From a candidate division KSB1 bacterium (GTDB lineage Bacteria; Zhuqueibacterota; Zhuqueibacteria; Residuimicrobiales; Krinioviventaceae), in the NCBI GenBank assembly GCA_034521575.1, contig JAXHMJ010000003.1, positions 496,001 to 560,000 of the forward strand: a stretch of 64,000 nt of DNA, read 5' to 3'. The translations under genes and the position numbers were made by a program. Positions 12,083 through 21,555 of this stretch are shown in pieces. The notes beneath the pieces are model-generated. The model was not told the origin of the DNA. It ran no database searches and saw only the letters and a list, made by a program, of their open reading frames with translations. Every line of letters starts with the position of its first letter. Position 1 is the first letter of the stretch.

Positions 12083-12931
12083 TCAACTCTGCTTCAAATT
12101 CAGGAAATTCTCAAAGGCGTTTTCCACTGTTTGCATCGGCGGTGTATTTTTATTTTCTTCTTCAATGATAAACCATTCCGTGCCGCCCTCTGTCCGGCAG
12201 AATTCAATAACTTGCTGCCAGGGCACATCACCTTCTCCTACGATGGCGTTTTCGTTTTCTGCTGAATAGCCTTTACAATGCAGGGTTGTTGCGCGTCCCG
12301 GATATTTTTTCAGCGCTTCCATCACATTGGCGCCGCCGGCCATACCGTTTCCGGTATCCAGCTGCAGGATGACATTTTCTGTGGTATTGTCTGCAAACAC
12401 GTACCAGGGTATTTCACCGTCCAGTTCCTGGAATTCGTTTTTATGATTATGATAGCCAATGCGCAAATCAAATTGTTTGATAATTTCGGCAATTTTATTA
12501 AAGGTATCCGCCAGCTCTTTCCAGTCATCAATTGTCTGGCGTTGTTCTTCGGGGATTGAGGGGACGATCATGTTTTTGCAGCCGATGGTCAAACAATATT
12601 CAGCAGTGGCTTCCAGCTGCGCGCCGGTTACTTTGTTAAAATCGAGATGCGATCCGCAGCATTTTAACCCGTTGTCATCTAAAAATTTACGCATTTCTGT
12701 GGCCTGGTAACCAAAATAGCCGGCAAATTCAACGCCCTGGTAACCAATCTGCGCAACCTGTTTCAAGGTGCCCGGAAGGTCCTCTTCGACCTGTTCGCGC
12801 ACGGAATACAGTTGTAATCCGATAGGAATGCCCTTGATTTCAGGGGTTTGATCACAGGCAGAAATGCCCAAAGCCGCGGCAGCTGAAACGGCGCCTGTTG
12901 TTTTCATAAAATTCCGTCTTGATAAATTCAT
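12083..12931 (-). CDS. Tat-exported sugar phosphate isomerase/epimerase-like TIM barrel
   Basis: A 282-aa protein of the xylose-isomerase-like TIM-barrel superfamily (AP endonuclease 2 fold). The start is ATG 12931, preceded by GGAGG; the N terminus MNLSRRNFMKTTGA is a twin-arginine signal with a possible lipobox ending at C (GISAC). Barrel motifs include GLQLYSVREQ, GYQGVEFAGYFG, GYHNHKNEF (metal-ligand histidines) and LQLDTGNG. Family members isomerise or epimerise sugars or cyclitols; exported versions are common in polysaccharide-degrading FCB bacteria, but the substrate is unknown. It stands alone on the minus strand, about 280 bases downstream of the ATP-citrate-lyase pair and apparently not part of that operon. 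Confidence 0.85.
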   Translation of the reverse strand: MNLSRRNFMKTTGAVSAAAALGISACDQTPEIKGIPIGLQLYSVREQVEEDLPGTLKQVAQIGYQGVEFAGYFGYQATEMRKFLDDNGLKCCGSHLDFNKVTGAQLEATAEYCLTIGCKNMIVPSIPEEQRQTIDDWKELADTFNKIAEIIKQFDLRIGYHNHKNEFQELDGEIPWYVFADNTTENVILQLDTGNGMAGGANVMEALKKYPGRATTLHCKGYSAENENAIVGEGDVPWQQVIEFCRTEGGTEWFIIEEENKNTPPMQTVENAFENFLNLKQS

Positions 12932-13215
12932 TGTACAACCTCCGTTGATTTGTAATTTGCTGTTCAATTATTATAACAAAAAATGAACGTCTTTGCAATC
13001 CAAAAGTCTAAAGATTTGATGGGGTTCCCGGTTTTACGAGCGGGTATTTATCAAAAATCAGGCGTTTGTATTTCTGTTGATTTGTCCTCTCTGACTCGGT
13101 ACTCGGCAGATTTTGGTGCAAAAGTCGATTTTCCGGTTCAGGATCACATAAATCACAGGCGAAAGCCAGACCTTGATCTGGTCCGTCTGGTGATCCTTTT
13201 GTTGTTTGAAATGAT

Positions 13216-15933
13216 TTACAGCACAAACGTCAATTCACTTTGCGGCGTGCGGCAGTCCATGTCCTGGCCGCGATTGCGGTGATCGGCGATTTCGGCGGCC
13301 ACACCGATGGCTCGGCCGATTAGAAAGAGAATGAATACCAGGTCCTGCGCCTGGTGCATGCTGATCCGTCTTGATTTAAGATCATGCCAGATGAGTTTAA
13401 GCGTGATCACGGCGAGTACCGCATCTACATTGACACAAAATACATTGTTGGTGACGCCTTCATTGTGCAGTTCCTTGACCAGCTCGTGATAAAAGTCGAG
13501 GAAAATGTTGCGGATGCCCATTTTCTCGATTTGTTTTCTGATATAATCCTCGCGTGGATCAATATTTACCTGATTGCCTTTGAACACCGGGTGATTGATG
13601 CAGGGAATGCGTTTATAATTCAGGTGTCCCATCTCTTTTTGTTCTATTTTATAGGAACGGTAGGCCTTGGCTGCTTTATTGGCCAGCGCTGTCAGGTTAA
13701 TGCCAGAATTCAAATCCCCCGGATCGCCGAGCCCCGCTTTTTTGAACTGCTGCATGAGATAATCCACGGCTTCAAATCCGTTGCCGCCGTGCGCCAGACC
13801 CGTGTTGCAGAGAAATCCGGTGAACGCCAGTGAGATGTGGTTGCGGGCGCTGACTGATTCTTTGGCGCCTTTGGCGGAAAGGGTGCCGGGACCGTTGGTA
13901 ATGGTCAGACCGAGCAGCATCTTGAGTTCCGTCAATTCAGTTTCCGTGGGCTTGCGGTTCAGCAGAATTTTAAACACATTTTCTGTGAATGAAGTGGTGG
14001 GATGGAATTCTTTTGCAAGCGCCAGCTTTTTCCACATTTTATTTTTTTCAGGATCAATGACGCTGAACGCGACAAGACGTGCAACAATGAAAAAATAAAC
14101 CACTGCATCTTCCACATCCCGGCGGCTGATGCGTTTGCCCAGCATTGGATTCCAGAACAGACAGGTCAGGATGGAGGCCATAAGAAAAGCGTCGCGGTCT
14201 TTGATAAATTTTTTCTCAGAAGCAGCGATGGTCAGCACTTGCCGGCAGAAAAGCAGGGGAGGCCGTTTTTTGTCAGAATGCCCGACCTCTTTTAAAAGAT
14301 GATCGGTGAAATTGCCGGGCGCTTCCTCTTGCGCCGTAAGCAGTTCACGGATGATTTTTTTGCGCAGTGGTTCGGGCATCTCCGAGGCCCATCCGAATTC
14401 ACGCAAGGTGTCTATAATCCAGATCACTTTTTCGCGGACGGCTTTGAGAAGCGGGGCGTCTCCCAGCATGGCGATCTGCGAGCCAAGATAAGCGTTCGGC
14501 GTGCAGCCGCGTGCCTTGGCGATATTGATTTGTCCGATTTCACCATCGTCCAGTTTGAGAAAAGCGTTCAGCAGAAAATTTACCTTTCTGATATCTCTGG
14601 ACGCCGGCTGCACCTTGGCCAGTGCAAAAAACAGATTGTCCTCAACCGTGCGGGTGGACAAATCAAGTACGGGCGTCCCGTGCAGCTCTGCCACCAATGT
14701 TTTGGGATTGATGCGTGAAGCCGCTGATTTGTTGCGCATATTTTGCGTCAGACAGGTGGCGCCGACCTGTTTTGTGATTTCCTCAATCTGTTCTCCATAG
14801 GGGGACATGGCGCGTGTGACCGGCATATCCAGATTCGGCGGAAGTTTGAGCAGGTTGTCACTGACCCACAGCTTTAAGGAAAGATCGCCGGTCGATTTGA
14901 AATCCAGAGGTTCATCTATTTTTTTATAGACTGCTTTCATGGCATCGGGAAAATGCTGAATGGATGAAATGCGCACTCCTTTTTTGCCCACCACCGGATT
15001 GTCGGGGTCAAATACATCGCAGTCAAAATATTCGTCAAACCAGCGCTCTTTGGATTCCGCATCGTCGCCGCCGCCGGCCATGGCACCCGCATGTCCGCAG
15101 GCGCGCAGAATGTATTTTTTCCAGCGGCCGGTCACACAAACCACGATCGGTTTGTTGAATCCAAATCGGCGTGATCTGATCCATTCGATTGCCTGTTTTT
15201 CATAATATCCGCCGGGTTCTACGTAGAGCGCCACGGCTTTGGTACGCGGATCATTCTGCGCGGCATAGAGGAATTCCGGCAGTGCAAAATGGATATAAAC
15301 ATCTTTACCCGAACTGACAGCTGTACTGATACCGAATCCGCCGGTTTTCAGATATTCTGATATGGTGGTGGTGAAATTTCCGGAATTGGAGTGCAGAGCA
15401 ACCGAGCCTTTGACCAGCGACTCGTCGGGATGATCGCCTCCCAGGGCGCCGCCCACACGAACATGATCCCAGACATTCGCGACACCGAGACAGTTGGCGC
15501 CGACCACATCCACACCCGCTTCCTGGCAAATAAAACGGATATTGCGGGAGTCGCGGGTGGGTACTTTTTCCGTGATGATAATGATGCGCTTCAGGGCTTT
15601 ATTATAGGTCACCAGTTCCCAGGCGGCCTGACTCACAGCGGCCGGGGGCAGATAAATCACCCCGATATCAAACGGGATCTGATTTTTCACCACATCAAGC
15701 ACACTTCGGAATACGGGTATATTGCCCTTGTCGGTTTCCAGTCTGCCGAGACGGCCGTATTGAACACCGGCTACCACGTTGCCGCCGCTGTAAGTGTGTG
15801 AAACCGGCGTGACTTTGCGGCTTTCATTGCCGAGTATGTTGATCACACAGACGCGTGAATCCCGGGTTACCAGTTCTTCCAGTGAATAGATTCCGACATA
15901 ATAGGGAAACGGTTTTGTCATTTGACTTTTCAT
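13216..15933 (-). CDS. ATP-citrate lyase-like large subunit (SucD-like plus citrate synthase-like), extended
   Basis: 905 aa, well above the roughly 600 aa of known bacterial AclA. Residues 1-310 are a CoA-binding and ligase region like SucD/AclA, with the phosphohistidine motif ACGHAGAMAGG (H281) and NSGNFTTTISEY. The C-terminal region resembles the citrate-synthase lyase domain of ATP-citrate lyase, but divergently. NGPGTLSAKG has Asn680 where the first catalytic His is expected; NHPVFKG keeps a His (H781) but has Pro where Arg is usual; VNVDAVLAV keeps the Asp (D837). About 200 extra residues (430-650) precede this. With the partner subunit it should make or split citryl-CoA/citrate using ATP and CoA, in the cytoplasm. 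It overlaps the partner gene by 4 bases (translational coupling). Whether it cleaves citrate is uncertain because of the changed active site. Confidence 0.75.
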   Translation of the reverse strand: MKSQMTKPFPYYVGIYSLEELVTRDSRVCVINILGNESRKVTPVSHTYSGGNVVAGVQYGRLGRLETDKGNIPVFRSVLDVVKNQIPFDIGVIYLPPAAVSQAAWELVTYNKALKRIIIITEKVPTRDSRNIRFICQEAGVDVVGANCLGVANVWDHVRVGGALGGDHPDESLVKGSVALHSNSGNFTTTISEYLKTGGFGISTAVSSGKDVYIHFALPEFLYAAQNDPRTKAVALYVEPGGYYEKQAIEWIRSRRFGFNKPIVVCVTGRWKKYILRACGHAGAMAGGGDDAESKERWFDEYFDCDVFDPDNPVVGKKGVRISSIQHFPDAMKAVYKKIDEPLDFKSTGDLSLKLWVSDNLLKLPPNLDMPVTRAMSPYGEQIEEITKQVGATCLTQNMRNKSAASRINPKTLVAELHGTPVLDLSTRTVEDNLFFALAKVQPASRDIRKVNFLLNAFLKLDDGEIGQINIAKARGCTPNAYLGSQIAMLGDAPLLKAVREKVIWIIDTLREFGWASEMPEPLRKKIIRELLTAQEEAPGNFTDHLLKEVGHSDKKRPPLLFCRQVLTIAASEKKFIKDRDAFLMASILTCLFWNPMLGKRISRRDVEDAVVYFFIVARLVAFSVIDPEKNKMWKKLALAKEFHPTTSFTENVFKILLNRKPTETELTELKMLLGLTITNGPGTLSAKGAKESVSARNHISLAFTGFLCNTGLAHGGNGFEAVDYLMQQFKKAGLGDPGDLNSGINLTALANKAAKAYRSYKIEQKEMGHLNYKRIPCINHPVFKGNQVNIDPREDYIRKQIEKMGIRNIFLDFYHELVKELHNEGVTNNVFCVNVDAVLAVITLKLIWHDLKSRRISMHQAQDLVFILFLIGRAIGVAAEIADHRNRGQDMDCRTPQSELTFVL

Positions 15934-17198
15934 GCGACCCCTGCCTTTCTGCGGAACGCCTCAATGCCGTCCGTGCGCCACCATTTGTCCACGCGCAATG
16001 CGTAATTCAGCACTTCGATCATGGAGGTATCATACCCGAACATTTTATAGGGAAGTTTCAATCGGTCCAGAATGTCCTTGGCGTAAAACATCCCCCGGAT
16101 CAGGTTTGGGCCGCCGCGGCCGACGACCACGTACACGGGTTTGCGTCCGTGTTCGGCCATATGATCGCGCAGAGCATCGAACATGCCCTTGAATGTGACG
16201 AAGATATCCGTATTGTTGGCTTTGCCGCCGATGATCAGGATAGTGCTTGCCTTTTCCAGCCAGTGTTTGTAAACAATGCGACTGATTTTGTACATCTTGT
16301 CATAGGGCGGATTGCCGCCGAAATCGGATGAATAGATGGCTGCATCTCCCAGCGTTTCCGTGGCCGCACTGTTGGCGCCGCCGCCGAACATAAAGGGAAT
16401 GATTGATCCGTCGGGGTTCAATTCCAGGACATCACTTTGTCCCTGATAAGTGCGCAGTTGATTGATCTCGGATTCGAACGGCGTTAATTCCGACTGCAGG
16501 ATTGTATTGGGTAATTCCAGACGACGCCAGGCCGGATTGTCCTGGTCGAATGCTGCTTTGAAATCACAGGCCACCGGCAGCCAGCGGTTGCCCTGGCGTT
16601 TCAGGCGGATCGGATTGATCTCCAGCGTTGTCAGTCCGTAATTGTCATACAGCGCCCACAATTTGGGCAGATGTTGAACCAGAGGAGAAATATACTGCTC
16701 CGGACATCCGGTATCCACCAGGGCATTGGTAATGTCAAAGGATTTAATGCCGATAAACGGATCAATCCAGATTTCCTTTTTTTTATCAGGAGGAAGCTCC
16801 TCCACCTCCACACCGCCGTGCGGCGTGATGGTAAAAATGGGCTTTCGTTTTTGTGTGGATGTGGTGATACTGAAATAAACTTCAATCTCGGAGGGTACGT
16901 ATTCTTCAAAGATAACCCCGTTTGCTCTGACGGTGCGGCCTCCCCATTGATGTGAGACAAAATAGAGGTCCTCTTTTGCCTTCATGGCGTCCGCCAGGTT
17001 GTCCACAAATCGGATCAGCCCCGCTTTGCCTTTTCTCCCGACACCGCCGAAAAAGATGGGCTTGACCACCAGTTTTCCCGAGGTGTCCAGCATCTTTTGG
17101 ATCTCATCCATGACCACCCCGCTGCCGATGCATTTTACAACGGGAAATTCTACGAGTTTCAGCAGTTTGCTGCCGTAATACAAACCGGTGATTTGCAT
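15930..17198 (-). CDS. ATP-citrate lyase-like small subunit (ATP-grasp, SucC-like)
   Basis: A 422-aa ATP-grasp protein matching the small (AclB/SucC-like) subunit of ATP-citrate lyase. Recognisable pieces are KLVVKPIFFGGVGRKGKAGL (nucleotide-binding strand and glycine-rich loop), SHQWGGRTVRANGVIFEEYV, LTTLEINPIRL and FMFGGGANSAATETLGD (citrate-binding domain). VYVVVGRGGPNLIRGM near the C terminus fits the CoA-ligase region. It would phosphorylate and activate citrate together with the SucD-like subunit encoded directly downstream (4-base overlap). ATG at 17198 has a GGAG about 14 bases upstream. Length is close to the usual 400 aa. No other reductive TCA genes are in the window, so the physiological direction is open. 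Confidence 0.82.
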   Translation of the reverse strand: MQITGLYYGSKLLKLVEFPVVKCIGSGVVMDEIQKMLDTSGKLVVKPIFFGGVGRKGKAGLIRFVDNLADAMKAKEDLYFVSHQWGGRTVRANGVIFEEYVPSEIEVYFSITTSTQKRKPIFTITPHGGVEVEELPPDKKKEIWIDPFIGIKSFDITNALVDTGCPEQYISPLVQHLPKLWALYDNYGLTTLEINPIRLKRQGNRWLPVACDFKAAFDQDNPAWRRLELPNTILQSELTPFESEINQLRTYQGQSDVLELNPDGSIIPFMFGGGANSAATETLGDAAIYSSDFGGNPPYDKMYKISRIVYKHWLEKASTILIIGGKANNTDIFVTFKGMFDALRDHMAEHGRKPVYVVVGRGGPNLIRGMFYAKDILDRLKLPYKMFGYDTSMIEVLNYALRVDKWWRTDGIEAFRRKAGVA

Positions 17199-17992: not shown

Positions 17993-20176
17993 CTACGGTT
18001 CATGAAACAGCATGTTTTGGGGAATGATCTCCCGGGACCGGGAAGAGCTTTGCCAGAACACCTCCAGCACCTCGTCCCCGGCGTGTTCGTAAAATTCCAC
18101 GCGTATAGTGTGATATCCTTTTTCCAGGCCGATTTCTCCGGATTTCAGCAGCGGTGCGTGATCGCCGTCATTATTAACCACCTGTTGCCCGTCAATCCAC
18201 AGTTTGGTGCCGTCATCCGAGTGGGTCGCAAATTTATAGATATCCGTGGCCGGAATGTTGATCAATCCCTCGTAAACAATTCCGAAATTATCCGGCTGCT
18301 GCTGCGGCGACAGATCGATTTGCGCGCTGACGCCCTGATCAACCGGTTCCAGCTCTGCAAACCGGGGCAGCATCTCCCATTCGCCATTGTACAGTTTGCA
18401 GCGGATTCCCGGCTGCCGGTTCTCTGTCTGCACGGACGGCAGTGGTCGTGTCTGCTCGTAGGTGACGGTTTTCAGTTTGCTGCTGCGCCCTTTTGCATCG
18501 ATGCACACGGTTTTCAGTTGTACTCCATCCTGAAAAATAATAATCGGTTGCCGGTAGCGGGGCGAGTCAACCGAGGGTACACTGCCGTCCAGGGTGTAAT
18601 AAACCGGGTCACCGGATTTGTGCGCCAGCTGGACCGTTTTCTTGTCGATAAACAGACTGCTCTGCGGTGATACCGCTACCGGCGGCGCCGGAAAGTTGAA
18701 ATCCACTGCGCGCACCCGCACCGCAATATAGGGCTGGTTCGGCAGGTCCAGTGTAAAGGAATCGAAATACGGCTGTTTAACCGGTTTGATGTTCATATTC
18801 CAGGCATCGATAATGTCGACTTTGTATTCCAGATACGGCGGTACTTTGAAGGTATACGAATCCGGTGTATCGGTGCTGAAATACCAGAGATAATATCGGT
18901 CCTTTACTCCTGCATGCAGGCTGTCAATATAGCACAGTCCTTCGGCCGGAGTTTCATCGAATATCTGTTTGAAAAAGGCGATGCGGGCCGGACTCTGGCC
19001 GTGCAGCACACCGCCCTTGGACCACCACAGGATATCATCCGGATGCTTGTAGGTTTCACCATGTCCCATATAGCACCCGGCTGCCGCGGCTTTCCAGAAC
19101 CGGTCAGTCATTTCTTGCGCAGTGATATTGCCCCAGCCCTGCGGGATATTTCCTTCATATCGTGATTCATCGTAAAGTATGGGTTTTTGATACAGCTGCT
19201 GCCAGTCCTGGATCCGGGAAAAATCCGAGCTCTGAATACTGCAGTGCGTCACCCAGGGTTTGCTGTGATCGTAAAATATACGGCCGTTGTGTATTCCGCG
19301 CAAATGATCGTAAGGATCGTTTTCCGTGATGATTTTGTAAAACCGGTCCCAATCAGCCATATCCTTGTCTGTCATAAAGTCGAATTCATTCGCCAGTGAC
19401 CACCAGACATTGCGAAACGCCGATAACCGTGCCAGCGCGTATTTCAGGTAAAAATCATCCTGTTCGTCCGTCATGTTTGCAAAATCCCAGCGGTCATAGG
19501 GATGAAACAGGATGAGATCCGCCTGAATCCCCAGATTTTGCAGATCCAGAATCCGCTGTTCCAGATGCGCCCAAAAGGCCGGATCAAAGCGGGAATAGTC
19601 GTTTTTACCGCTTTGATCGCGGACAAATGCGTATGATCCGGGTTCGTTTTGATTGTATACATAGTCTTTGGGGAAAATGCACATACGGATTTTGTTGAAT
19701 GCCGACTCTGAAAGAGTCTTAAGCGTTTGTTCCTGCAGCTGCTGTGTTTGATGAATCCATGCGTAGCAGGTTGTGCCGATTTGTTTGTAGGGTGTCCCGT
19801 CTGTATAGGCGAAATGAAAGGTATTGTGTACGCGCACCGGCCCATGATTGCCGTCTGATACCGGTATGCATACCATTTCTCCTGTTTTTCCATCCAGGGG
19901 TTCAACGGTGCTGCTGATATGCCAGCTCCAGGTGCCGGTCTTTTCCGGCATAAACCGGATTTTATAGACGCCGTCTCCGTCATAAAATCCGTGGACGGTG
20001 ACGATTGATTCAGCATTACGGAAATCAGCAGAGAGTTGAACATCGGTGAACGGATTGCCGGAGCGGGGACCCTGGAGAGTGATCTCGTACAATCCCCAGC
20101 GCTCAACATGTTCGGCTGCAAAAAGGACGGTGGTTATGATTAATTGAATCCAAAAACTCTTAATCAGATGTTTCAT
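17993..20176 (-). CDS. Secreted DUF5060/DUF4038 glycoside hydrolase with PA14 domain
   Basis: A 727-aa exported protein. Signal peptide (1-20), then a DUF5060 beta-sandwich (WGLYEITLQGP, to about 100). A DUF4038-type (beta/alpha)8 glycosidase domain follows (about 115-430), with likely catalytic glutamates in WWSLANEFDFM (acid/base) and ILYDESRYEGN (nucleophile). Further on are a chitobiase C-terminal-like domain (VYYTLDGSVPS, about 500-570) and a PA14 sugar-binding domain (THSDDGTKLWIDGQQVVNN, about 590-725). The family cleaves plant or algal polysaccharides, but exact specificity cannot be read. The start is ATG 20176, with AAGGAA 7 bases upstream, rather than a TTG six bases earlier. An AraC regulator is encoded divergently about 500 bases away and may control it. 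Confidence 0.85.
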   Translation of the reverse strand: MKHLIKSFWIQLIITTVLFAAEHVERWGLYEITLQGPRSGNPFTDVQLSADFRNAESIVTVHGFYDGDGVYKIRFMPEKTGTWSWHISSTVEPLDGKTGEMVCIPVSDGNHGPVRVHNTFHFAYTDGTPYKQIGTTCYAWIHQTQQLQEQTLKTLSESAFNKIRMCIFPKDYVYNQNEPGSYAFVRDQSGKNDYSRFDPAFWAHLEQRILDLQNLGIQADLILFHPYDRWDFANMTDEQDDFYLKYALARLSAFRNVWWSLANEFDFMTDKDMADWDRFYKIITENDPYDHLRGIHNGRIFYDHSKPWVTHCSIQSSDFSRIQDWQQLYQKPILYDESRYEGNIPQGWGNITAQEMTDRFWKAAAAGCYMGHGETYKHPDDILWWSKGGVLHGQSPARIAFFKQIFDETPAEGLCYIDSLHAGVKDRYYLWYFSTDTPDSYTFKVPPYLEYKVDIIDAWNMNIKPVKQPYFDSFTLDLPNQPYIAVRVRAVDFNFPAPPVAVSPQSSLFIDKKTVQLAHKSGDPVYYTLDGSVPSVDSPRYRQPIIIFQDGVQLKTVCIDAKGRSSKLKTVTYEQTRPLPSVQTENRQPGIRCKLYNGEWEMLPRFAELEPVDQGVSAQIDLSPQQQPDNFGIVYEGLINIPATDIYKFATHSDDGTKLWIDGQQVVNNDGDHAPLLKSGEIGLEKGYHTIRVEFYEHAGDEVLEVFWQSSSRSREIIPQNMLFHEP

Positions 20177-20682
20177 GATCAATTTCCTTTTGATTGAAAG
20201 TAATTGTTCTGCCGCTGTTGCGATATCAGCAGCGGCCGGATTGTAATTCCCTGAATTTGATGTTCAGCGGATCAATATTGCAGCTTTGACGCTCAGGACC
20301 GGTGAGCTGCAGACCGTTTTAATCTACCATGGCGAAAAGATTCTCCGGCTGTCCGGAAACATTGATATCAAGCGGTTTGTCAGCAGCGTCTTTGCCGACG
20401 TTGACCTTTGTTTTGATCTGTTTATTCGTGATGATACAGATTCCATCCCAGATAGAAGTCGACTGCTTCCTGCACAATATCTGACGGGGTTCCGTGCAGC
20501 GATGCACTGTATCGGTACTTCCGGTCACGATCCGTGCTTTGCGAACGCTGGTGCTTGGGGCAATCGCCGGGATAAGCGATACTTTTTTCTTAAAACTCTC
20601 TGAAAAAAATTTGCGATTTTCAGGAATTTTCATAAATTTAGTCTCGTAATACATGATATACTACCTTTATTCAGGTTCAAAT
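20177..20682. other. Divergent promoter region, no supported gene
   Basis: About 500 bases between the glycoside hydrolase and the AraC regulator. It has an interrupted inverted repeat gccgctg...cagcggc (about 20212-20237). Frames of about 105 codons exist on both strands (20286-20603 plus, 20319-20654 minus), but neither shows a domain, a ribosome site or a coding bias I can defend. Promoters for both flanking genes should lie here. Confidence 0.4.
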
Positions 20683-21555
20683 ATGACGAATACCGATAAA
20701 TTAAAAAGCTTTGACGCGTGGCGGCCGGAATTCAAACCCTATGGATTCACCGTCGAAGTGTGGACACCCAAGGTCATGCCGCGTGCTGACCGTCATAATG
20801 AGATTGAAATCAATCTGCTTACCGGCGGCTCACTCACCTATCTGATCAATGACCGCAGGATCAGGATCCCAGACCGTCAGCTGGCGGTGTTCTGGGCGCT
20901 GATCCCGCATCAGATTGTTCATTTTGATCATCAGGACTCATATTTTGTCTGCACTATCCCTTTTGCGCAGTTTATGGAATGGCAGCTGCCCGGTCATTTT
21001 GTAGAGCAGATTCTCGGCGGTGACGTGGTAATTTCGGGCGATACGGGTTCCTGTTCCTATGATCAACATCTGTTTGAGACCTGGCAAAAAGATATTAACG
21101 GCGGGGATTCGAAATACCGTAAAGTATTGATGCTGGAAATACGAGCGCGTTTGAATCGATTTGCAATAAATTCGGTCCGGGCGGAGAGTATGAATTCCGC
21201 AACGTCTGAACACAAAACCTTTCTACTGGACCTTGTGGAAAAAATGATCGTGTTTATTGCACGTAATTACACGCAGTCAATCAAGAATGAGGATATTGCG
21301 CGGGCGGTGGGACTGCATCCGGATTATGCCAATTCTGTTTTTAAAAAGTCTTTCGGTACAACGCTGAATGCCTGGGTGCTGCAGCAGCGCATCCTGCATG
21401 CACAACGGGAATTGTCTGTATCTCAAAAAAGTATCACGGAAATTGCCTATGAAGCGGGGTTCAATTCTCTGAGCCGCTTTAACGCCGCTTTTCGAAAAAA
21501 ATGTAATTGTTCTCCGAGAGAATACCGGAACCGGTACAGGTCAGTCAGCGGATGA
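20683..21555 (+). CDS. AraC-family transcriptional regulator
   Basis: A 290-aa regulator. The N-terminal cupin-like sensor half (about 1-150) has RADRHNEIEINLLTGGSLTY. The C-terminal double helix-turn-helix (about 195-290) shows IARAVGLHPDYANSVFKKSF, then ITEIAYEAGFNSLSRFNAAF and the AraC end motif SPREYRNR. Such proteins bind a sugar or signal in the cupin domain and activate nearby catabolic operons. It lies divergent to the PA14 glycoside hydrolase, its most likely target. Two ATGs are possible (20653 and 20683); I prefer 20683 because AGG lies upstream and the first ten residues of the longer form look non-native. The next gene pieces downstream are unrelated. Confidence 0.85.
   Translation: MTNTDKLKSFDAWRPEFKPYGFTVEVWTPKVMPRADRHNEIEINLLTGGSLTYLINDRRIRIPDRQLAVFWALIPHQIVHFDHQDSYFVCTIPFAQFMEWQLPGHFVEQILGGDVVISGDTGSCSYDQHLFETWQKDINGGDSKYRKVLMLEIRARLNRFAINSVRAESMNSATSEHKTFLLDLVEKMIVFIARNYTQSIKNEDIARAVGLHPDYANSVFKKSFGTTLNAWVLQQRILHAQRELSVSQKSITEIAYEAGFNSLSRFNAAFRKKCNCSPREYRNRYRSVSG

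Follow-up and report, generated by a model that had tools for sequence, protein, structure and literature searches.

Can a two-gene locus that resembles ATP-citrate lyase (ACL), and that carries an asparagine at an active-site histidine position of its lyase half, encode a functional citrate-cleaving enzyme? We analyzed such a pair on contig JAXHMJ010000003.1 of a candidate division KSB1 bacterium, within a window of 64,000 nucleotides (64 kb; the whole stretch of DNA analyzed). Sequence comparison and structural modeling indicate that the pair quite likely encodes a type II ACL, performing ATP- and coenzyme A (CoA)-dependent citrate cleavage with a lyase half that combines this asparagine (Asn680) with a retained catalytic histidine (His715).

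Domain organization of the gene pair

The locus consists of two adjoining minus-strand open reading frames with no internal stops, bearing out the pair with a 905-residue large subunit described in the original prediction, a note made from the DNA letters alone.

15930..17198, minus strand: small subunit (422 aa), SucC/CcsA-like with ATP-grasp_2 and citrate-binding domain; shares 4 bp with the beginning of the large-subunit gene
13216..15933, minus strand: large subunit (905 aa), in which SucD-like and citrate-synthase-like halves are fused, by domain matches and models
15034..15873, minus strand: SucD/CcsB-like CoA-ligase part, approximately residues 21–300; 6hxq_A matches over residues 25–301 (E 2.4e-34)
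15568..15570, minus strand: Glu122 codon, matched in PDB alignments to the ITEG/ITEH Glu of SucD and citryl-CoA synthetase (CCS); invariant in 26 rows
15091..15093, minus strand: His281 codon, phosphohistidine site (GHAGA) in PDB alignments; invariant in the 33 of 34 family rows that reach the site

Pfam matches assign ATP-grasp_2 and Citrate_bind (PF16114, the citrate-binding domain of ATP citrate lyase) to the small subunit and CoA_binding, Succ_CoA_lig and Citrate_synt (PF00285; residues 642–886, E 9.5e-7, 28.6 bits against a cut-off of 27) to the large subunit. The nearest PDB sequences of both subunits belong to 6hxq, the CCS of Hydrogenobacter (E 2.4e-34 for the large subunit and, through the CCS large subunit 6hxq_B, 1.7e-34 for the small), and for the large subunit Chlorobium ACL (E 1.3e-16) and human ACLY (8.6e-9 at best) rank below it. 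The phosphohistidine H281, predicted to be kept, is found at that position, and Glu122 is a residue that we take to be the counterpart of human ACLY E599. The operon is real and ordinary-looking, and comes from a poorly studied family.

An asparagine–histidine signature in the lyase active site

Pig citrate synthase uses H274, H320 and D375 for catalysis and H238 for substrate binding. The available text of PMC8455617 names His274, His320 and Asp375 as active-site residues, and that of PMC4524684 includes His238 and His274 in the active site. We aligned the lyase part using MAFFT with three citryl-CoA lyases (CCLs) of the same phylum (L013–L015) and five citrate synthases including E. coli GltA, the five being those of ten loci that passed a motif filter. 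In this alignment N680 corresponds to the His of DHG/DHE, H715 to the His of HGG and H781 to the His of GH(R), with R794 in DPR and D837 in NVD; against the CCL structure 6hxp, N680 of the lyase core likewise meets the His of IDHG and H715 the His of AHGG.

13894..13896, minus strand: Asn680 codon, aligned with the substrate-binding His of citrate synthase (H238 in pig) and with H900 of human ACLY; Asn in 34 of 34 rows
13789..13791, minus strand: His715 codon, HGGNG motif, aligned with the catalytic His of citrate synthase (H274 in pig); no exception to His among the 34 rows
13591..13593, minus strand: His781 codon, within NHPVFK, with Pro782 next to it; corresponds to H320 in pig and H975 in ACLY; both residues unchanged across all 34 rows
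13552..13554, minus strand: Arg794 codon, in the DPR motif whose Arg binds the substrate carboxylate in citrate synthase; unchanged across all 34 rows
13423..13425, minus strand: Asp837 codon, within VNVDA, corresponding to the catalytic Asp (D375 in pig, D1026 in ACLY); unchanged across all 34 rows

The original prediction held that Asn680 replaces the first catalytic His. Asn680 is present, but by alignment its site is that of the substrate-binding His, and the catalytic His is kept as His715. A conserved His at the first site, which the prediction itself had named as a possible counterexample, did not emerge from a proper alignment, where every row has Asn. Misalignment hiding a His is ruled out by the 35-residue distance between the first and HGG sites that is common to the large subunit (N680–H715), 6hxp and human ACLY (H900–F935), and no row has His. 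Since human ACLY has H900 at the first site and F935 at the HGG site, type II and human type I ACL depart from CCL, as judged from sequence, in opposite ways. Profile comparison of the lyase half with E. coli GltA using hhalign gave an uninformative probability of 7, and the lyase-half profile retrieved from the PDB only 6hxp (E 0.015) and 2c6x (E 0.21), besides two unrelated chains.

The lyase part is found in 15 of 82 genomes of the same phylum and in 24 of 388 genomes of a wider set, 8 of the 24 outside the phylum. Plasmids also carry it: among 107 matching records, 19 extend over 80% or more of the query with 40–44% identity (Sinorhizobium, Microvirga, Paraburkholderia, Caballeronia, Aminobacter, Gemmobacter and Polymorphobacter), and 13 of these 19 were taken into locus and alignment analysis. 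The resulting 34-row alignment holds the protein itself, 12 sequences from its phylum, 13 from plasmids and 8 from other phyla; excluded were the incomplete members L012 and L030, fragments at contig edges in genomes G007 and G009, and repeated loci, while L006, L010 and L029 were retained although they resemble other rows. None of the 34 rows departs from N680, H715, H781, P782, R794, D837, R874, H885, R888 or R895. H781, the Pro after it and D837 lie where they were first predicted. Because the invariance spans phyla as well as rhizobial and Burkholderiaceae plasmids, Asn680 together with His715 is, on this alignment, a family-wide signature and not decay. A degraded or misassembled gene is ruled out by the presence of N680 and the catalytic residues in every row from several phyla. 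Between N680 and H715, plasmid members (L033–L044) and the majority of those from other phyla carry a 7-residue insertion (SADGPxxPxR), which same-phylum members and L117/L118 lack.

In a tree of the SucD-like part, which holds no type I ACL, 19 family rows group in a single clade (100/100) that excludes three CCS rows and one SucD row. This clade, with 6hxq outscoring ACL and ACLY, supports the earlier suggestion of a separate lineage of citrate-cleaving enzyme. A search of viral contigs yielded no relative.

A modeled citrate-synthase fold in the lyase half

The ColabFold model of the whole large subunit was poor to middling (pLDDT 67.5), and an AF2 (ColabFold) model of residues 385–905 alone reached a pLDDT of 80.5 and a pTM of 0.85 from 13 sequences.

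13237..14757, minus strand: complete citrate-synthase-like fold, approximately residues 393–899, by AF2 domain model and VIA

VIA-align matched this model to 3hwk_A (Z 26.5, 3.7 Å, 340 of 366 residues) and 1ixe_C (Z 26.4, 3.5 Å, 338 of 366 residues), and Foldseek TM-scores normalized by target length ran from 0.52 to 0.71 among the 50 matches listed. Methylcitrate synthases are among the best fold matches, level with citrate synthases; CCL and type I ACL lie outside the 50 VIA matches listed, which is uninformative on both as the score depends on length. The roughly 200 extra residues remarked on in the original prediction are real, but residues ~393–899 model as a full citrate-synthase fold. 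A foreign insert is ruled out, as the region completes that fold. Since 6hxp is only 268 aa long and the model aligns with nearly the whole of citrate synthase, the extra residues are best read, from the model, as the portion of citrate synthase missing from CCL.

Relation to known citrate-cleaving systems

Hugler and Sievert reportedly used the term type II ACL in 2011 for the enzyme of tubeworm symbionts. Thiel et al. 2012 (PMC3522073) likewise term the citrate-cleaving enzyme of these symbionts type II ACL, and the type II ACL primers acl2F1/acl2R1 given in the accessible text encode VAKEEWF and NGFEAIA. These primer peptides fall on conserved KExWF-type and NG(F/Y)E motifs of the family, ~1.3 kb apart in most rows; the large subunit has ESKERWF at residue 293 (4/7 positions) and NGFEAVD at 718 (5/7), with a predicted span of 1297 bp, L010 and L011 match NGFEAIA at 7/7, and in L009 and L008 the best ungapped peptide match lies elsewhere. 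PMC6783814 describes Mmc1_3638/3639 as the postulated type II ACL of Magnetococcus MC-1 and, in its accessible part, reports citrate cleavage by MC-1 in the absence of genes for other citrate-cleaving enzymes, and PMC5459899 places planctomycete enzymes between CCS/CCL and type II. We file the pair as type II ACL, a lineage already proposed in print (PMC3522073, PMC6783814), an assignment drawn from 14 primer-encoded residues and this literature and not from whole-sequence comparison. The original prediction had also named a known, characterized family with the same features as a counterexample; a known family with matching motifs does exist, but no purified enzyme is reported in the portions of these papers available. 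Within the open-access library searched, mostly as titles and abstract openings, we came across no study of type II ACL that deals with its fold or its active-site residues.

The type II ACLs of Magnetococcus, Endoriftia and other tubeworm symbionts share with the pair a two-gene arrangement, a large subunit fusing CoA ligase and lyase, and both primer-encoded motifs at matching positions; they differ in setting, as glycosidase-type genes lie close to the pair in the present 5.3-Mb host and many of its relatives sit on plasmids of heterotrophs. CCS/CCL provides the best PDB sequence relatives (6hxq for both subunits, 6hxp for the lyase core), but CCL is a separate protein of ~262–268 aa with two His (DHG, HGG), whereas the lyase part here is fused, ~507–510 aa long and has Asn at the first site; no other PF00285 match occurs in the genome, and separate CCS and CCL genes are carried instead by other members of the phylum (L013–L015). 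The large CCS subunit bears an extra C-terminal Cys-rich, ferredoxin-like stretch. Type I ACL (human ACLY, Chlorobium AclA) has an identical domain order and is expected to perform the same overall reaction, yet it has a short citrate-synthase-homology module (~260–280 aa in PDB constructs) against ~507 residues modeled as a complete fold, and human ACLY has H900, in the DHGP motif, and Phe935 where the present family has Asn680 and His715. With Si-citrate synthase and 2-methylcitrate synthase the lyase half shares the complete fold (Z ~23–26.5) and the HGG His, GH-type His, DPR Arg and NVD Asp, a His/His/Asp catalytic set that we expect to work in reverse; it differs from them in its fusion to a CoA ligase, the Asn in place of the substrate-binding His, the Pro after the second His, and an identity of 12–18% in fold alignments.

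Proposed mechanism of citrate cleavage

From these features we infer the reaction, its substrate and the role of Asn680. The small subunit would bind ATP and citrate, and phosphate would pass through His281 of the large subunit to give citryl-phosphate, from which CoA would displace the phosphate to form citryl-CoA. Formation of citryl-CoA is expected from the retention of the phosphohistidine, the ITE-motif Glu and the citrate-binding domain. The citrate-synthase-like half would then reverse the carbon–carbon bond step of citrate synthase, with His715, His781 and Asp837 cleaving citryl-CoA to acetyl-CoA and oxaloacetate and Asn680 supplying the substrate hydrogen bonding given by His in citrate synthase, CCL and human ACLY; cleavage within the same protein is expected because the citrate synthase catalytic set is kept.

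The pair could instead be a CCS with a dead or allosteric lyase module, citryl-CoA being cleaved elsewhere or released, a reading that we consider improbable. Asn680 does stand for a His that human ACLY uses around CoA (H900), D1026A ACLY traps citryl-CoA, and the module is argued to be allosteric in the accessible text of PMC10115795. The invariance of H715, H781, D837 and the Arg residues in all 34 rows is nonetheless unlike decay, and the host genome holds no other PF00285 protein and hence no separate CCL. The earlier suggestion that the enzyme may stop at citryl-CoA thus finds no support, given that both His residues, the Asp and R794, R874, R888 and R895 are all invariant and that the genome has no separate CCL.

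Citrate metabolism of the host genome

The host genome (5.26 Mb, 96% complete) was searched for PF00285, with no match besides the large subunit. It has an AcnA-like aconitase and an isocitrate-dehydrogenase-like gene interrupted by a stop. The original prediction advised looking for 2-oxoglutarate:ferredoxin oxidoreductase and fumarate reductase genes: a KorA-type 2-oxoacid oxidoreductase lies above cut-off (566 bits against 411) with a KorB-type partner just under it (330 against 364), but for fumarate reductase a single SdhA/FrdA match falls below cut-off (394 against 567 bits). Several genes, namely HMGL-like synthases beside an isopropylmalate-dehydrogenase-type gene, an isocitrate dehydrogenase-like gene and an oxidoreductase, are split between frames or broken by TGA (C4:78263-79070, C4:80940-81753, C3:85275-86021, C5:94737-97262), which suggests leftover indel errors in the assembly.

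The lack of a Si-citrate synthase raises the prospect that the pair mainly runs in reverse and makes citrate in its own organism, which we regard as the least probable of the alternatives considered. No other PF00285 protein occurs in this genome or in 7 more of the 15 carrier genomes of the phylum, but 15 of 67 genomes without the pair also have no PF00285 match, and absence of Si-citrate synthase marks the gene pair as a weak tendency only (8/15 carriers against 15/67 non-carriers; Fisher p 0.025, uncorrected for kinship). Reversal also requires conditions favoring ATP formation. In addition, the genome encodes a 453-aa HMGL-like protein (L078:6726-8087), on C3 ~0.4 Mb upstream of the window and near the isocitrate-dehydrogenase-like gene, whose best NCBIfam match is nifV homocitrate synthase, far under cut-off, and which we take to resemble Re-citrate synthase. 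Because no Si-citrate synthase was found, this protein may be the citrate maker of the cell, and the host could then both make and cleave citrate.

Gene neighborhoods and the choice of substrate

Among the 13 plasmid loci, 9 have a tri- or dicarboxylate transporter gene within ~12 kb (raw counts): a TcuC-type symporter adjoining the pair plus DctA in 5 (762 bits in L034, the other four 88–96% identical), TctA in 3, one of which also has DctA, and in 1 a citrate:cation symporter-family protein (413 bits, under the cut-off of 549). TcuA/TcuB occur in 2 of the 13 and an acyl-CoA thioesterase in 3; L032, L037, L038 and L042 have none of these transporters, L038 having only a response regulator. 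The Burkholderiaceae plasmid loci are near relatives, reflecting one or two events. Outside the phylum, L123 also favors citrate: the pair is flanked there by a monomeric isocitrate dehydrogenase (1258 bits) on one side and a SucC-type ligase on the other. The transporter neighbors of the plasmid relatives point to citrate or close tricarboxylates.

This range of acids bears on whether the same chemistry might serve another substrate, an option raised in the original prediction, as in an ATP-dependent lyase for methylcitrate, homocitrate or a tricarballylate-derived acid, for example. The family-wide Asn at the substrate-binding site, the high placing of methylcitrate synthases in the fold comparison (on a par with citrate synthases), and the TcuA/TcuB tricarballylate genes in two plasmid loci and TcuC-type symporter in five would all suit this reading. 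Tricarballylate catabolism by TcuAB, however, leads through cis-aconitate to citrate, so that the Tcu neighbors fit citrate equally well, and the small subunit retains the citrate-binding domain (PF16114). A carrier of type II ACL also shows citrate cleavage, according to the accessible part of PMC6783814, and we judge another acid unlikely.

Besides the dependence of the type II assignment on primer peptides and literature, several observations weigh against an ACL that cleaves citrate directly. By analogy with human ACLY, where the available text of PMC10115795 records a dispute, the lyase module may contribute allosterically. Similarity of the lyase half to citrate synthase and CCL is weak in sequence, PF00285 passing its cut-off by 1.6 bits in the large subunit and matching at E 0.01 in only 10 of 23 family members, and VAKEEWF is matched at only 4/7 positions. 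Model confidence falls below 50 in the segment just after N680 and in the H781 loop, and the model therefore does not prove the pocket. Within the phylum no neighbors are conserved beyond the pair itself, no neighbor in the window points to citrate, the five TcuC/DctA loci are close relatives and not independent, and the transporter counts carry no background rate of such genes.

Implications for the role of the citrate-synthase module

For human ACLY, opinion is divided on whether the citrate-synthase module carries out the cleavage itself or acts solely by allostery, as the accessible text of PMC10115795 sets out, and type II ACL offers a natural experiment on this question: it keeps the catalytic His missing in ACLY and is without the one retained in ACLY, so that opposite outcomes are predicted for mutants of the two. 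This signature and the full citrate-synthase fold emerged from an earlier claim that was wrong on the role of the His. As a tentative proposal that may well need revision, type II ACL would be a second, separately assembled ACL, a CCS joined to a full-length citrate-synthase domain whose active site is altered oppositely to that of ACLY (Asn for the substrate-binding His with the acid/base His kept; the reverse, with Phe, in ACLY), and it would serve, besides carbon fixation, the use of citrate or tricarballylate in heterotrophic proteobacteria. The nearness of citrate and tricarballylate transport genes cautions against taking the family as proof of autotrophy. The family is also easily overlooked in genome screens for the reductive tricarboxylic acid cycle because of uninformative annotations ("CoA-binding protein" or "hypothetical protein" in plasmid members) and because no NCBIfam model reached cut-off for the large subunit, the NCBIfam tally over 23 members giving generic ligase and lyase families only.

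Additional features of the loci

An Rfam scan of the window gave no match. Beside the pair lie genes for an Apiosidase-like/DUF5060 protein bearing PA14 and chitobiase-type domains and for an AraC-type regulator (17993-20182 and 20653-21555), which fits a polysaccharide-degrading host, and just downstream of the pair is a TAT-signal xylose-isomerase-like TIM barrel protein (12083-12967). In two genomes of one family the pair comes after a membrane H+-pyrophosphatase gene (PF03030; L117:13162-15303, L118:4773-6926). On the Aminobacter plasmid pUSP3 (L032:15465-18210), CBASS-type genes encoding a nucleotidyltransferase and a cGAMP-activated phospholipase follow straight after the pair.

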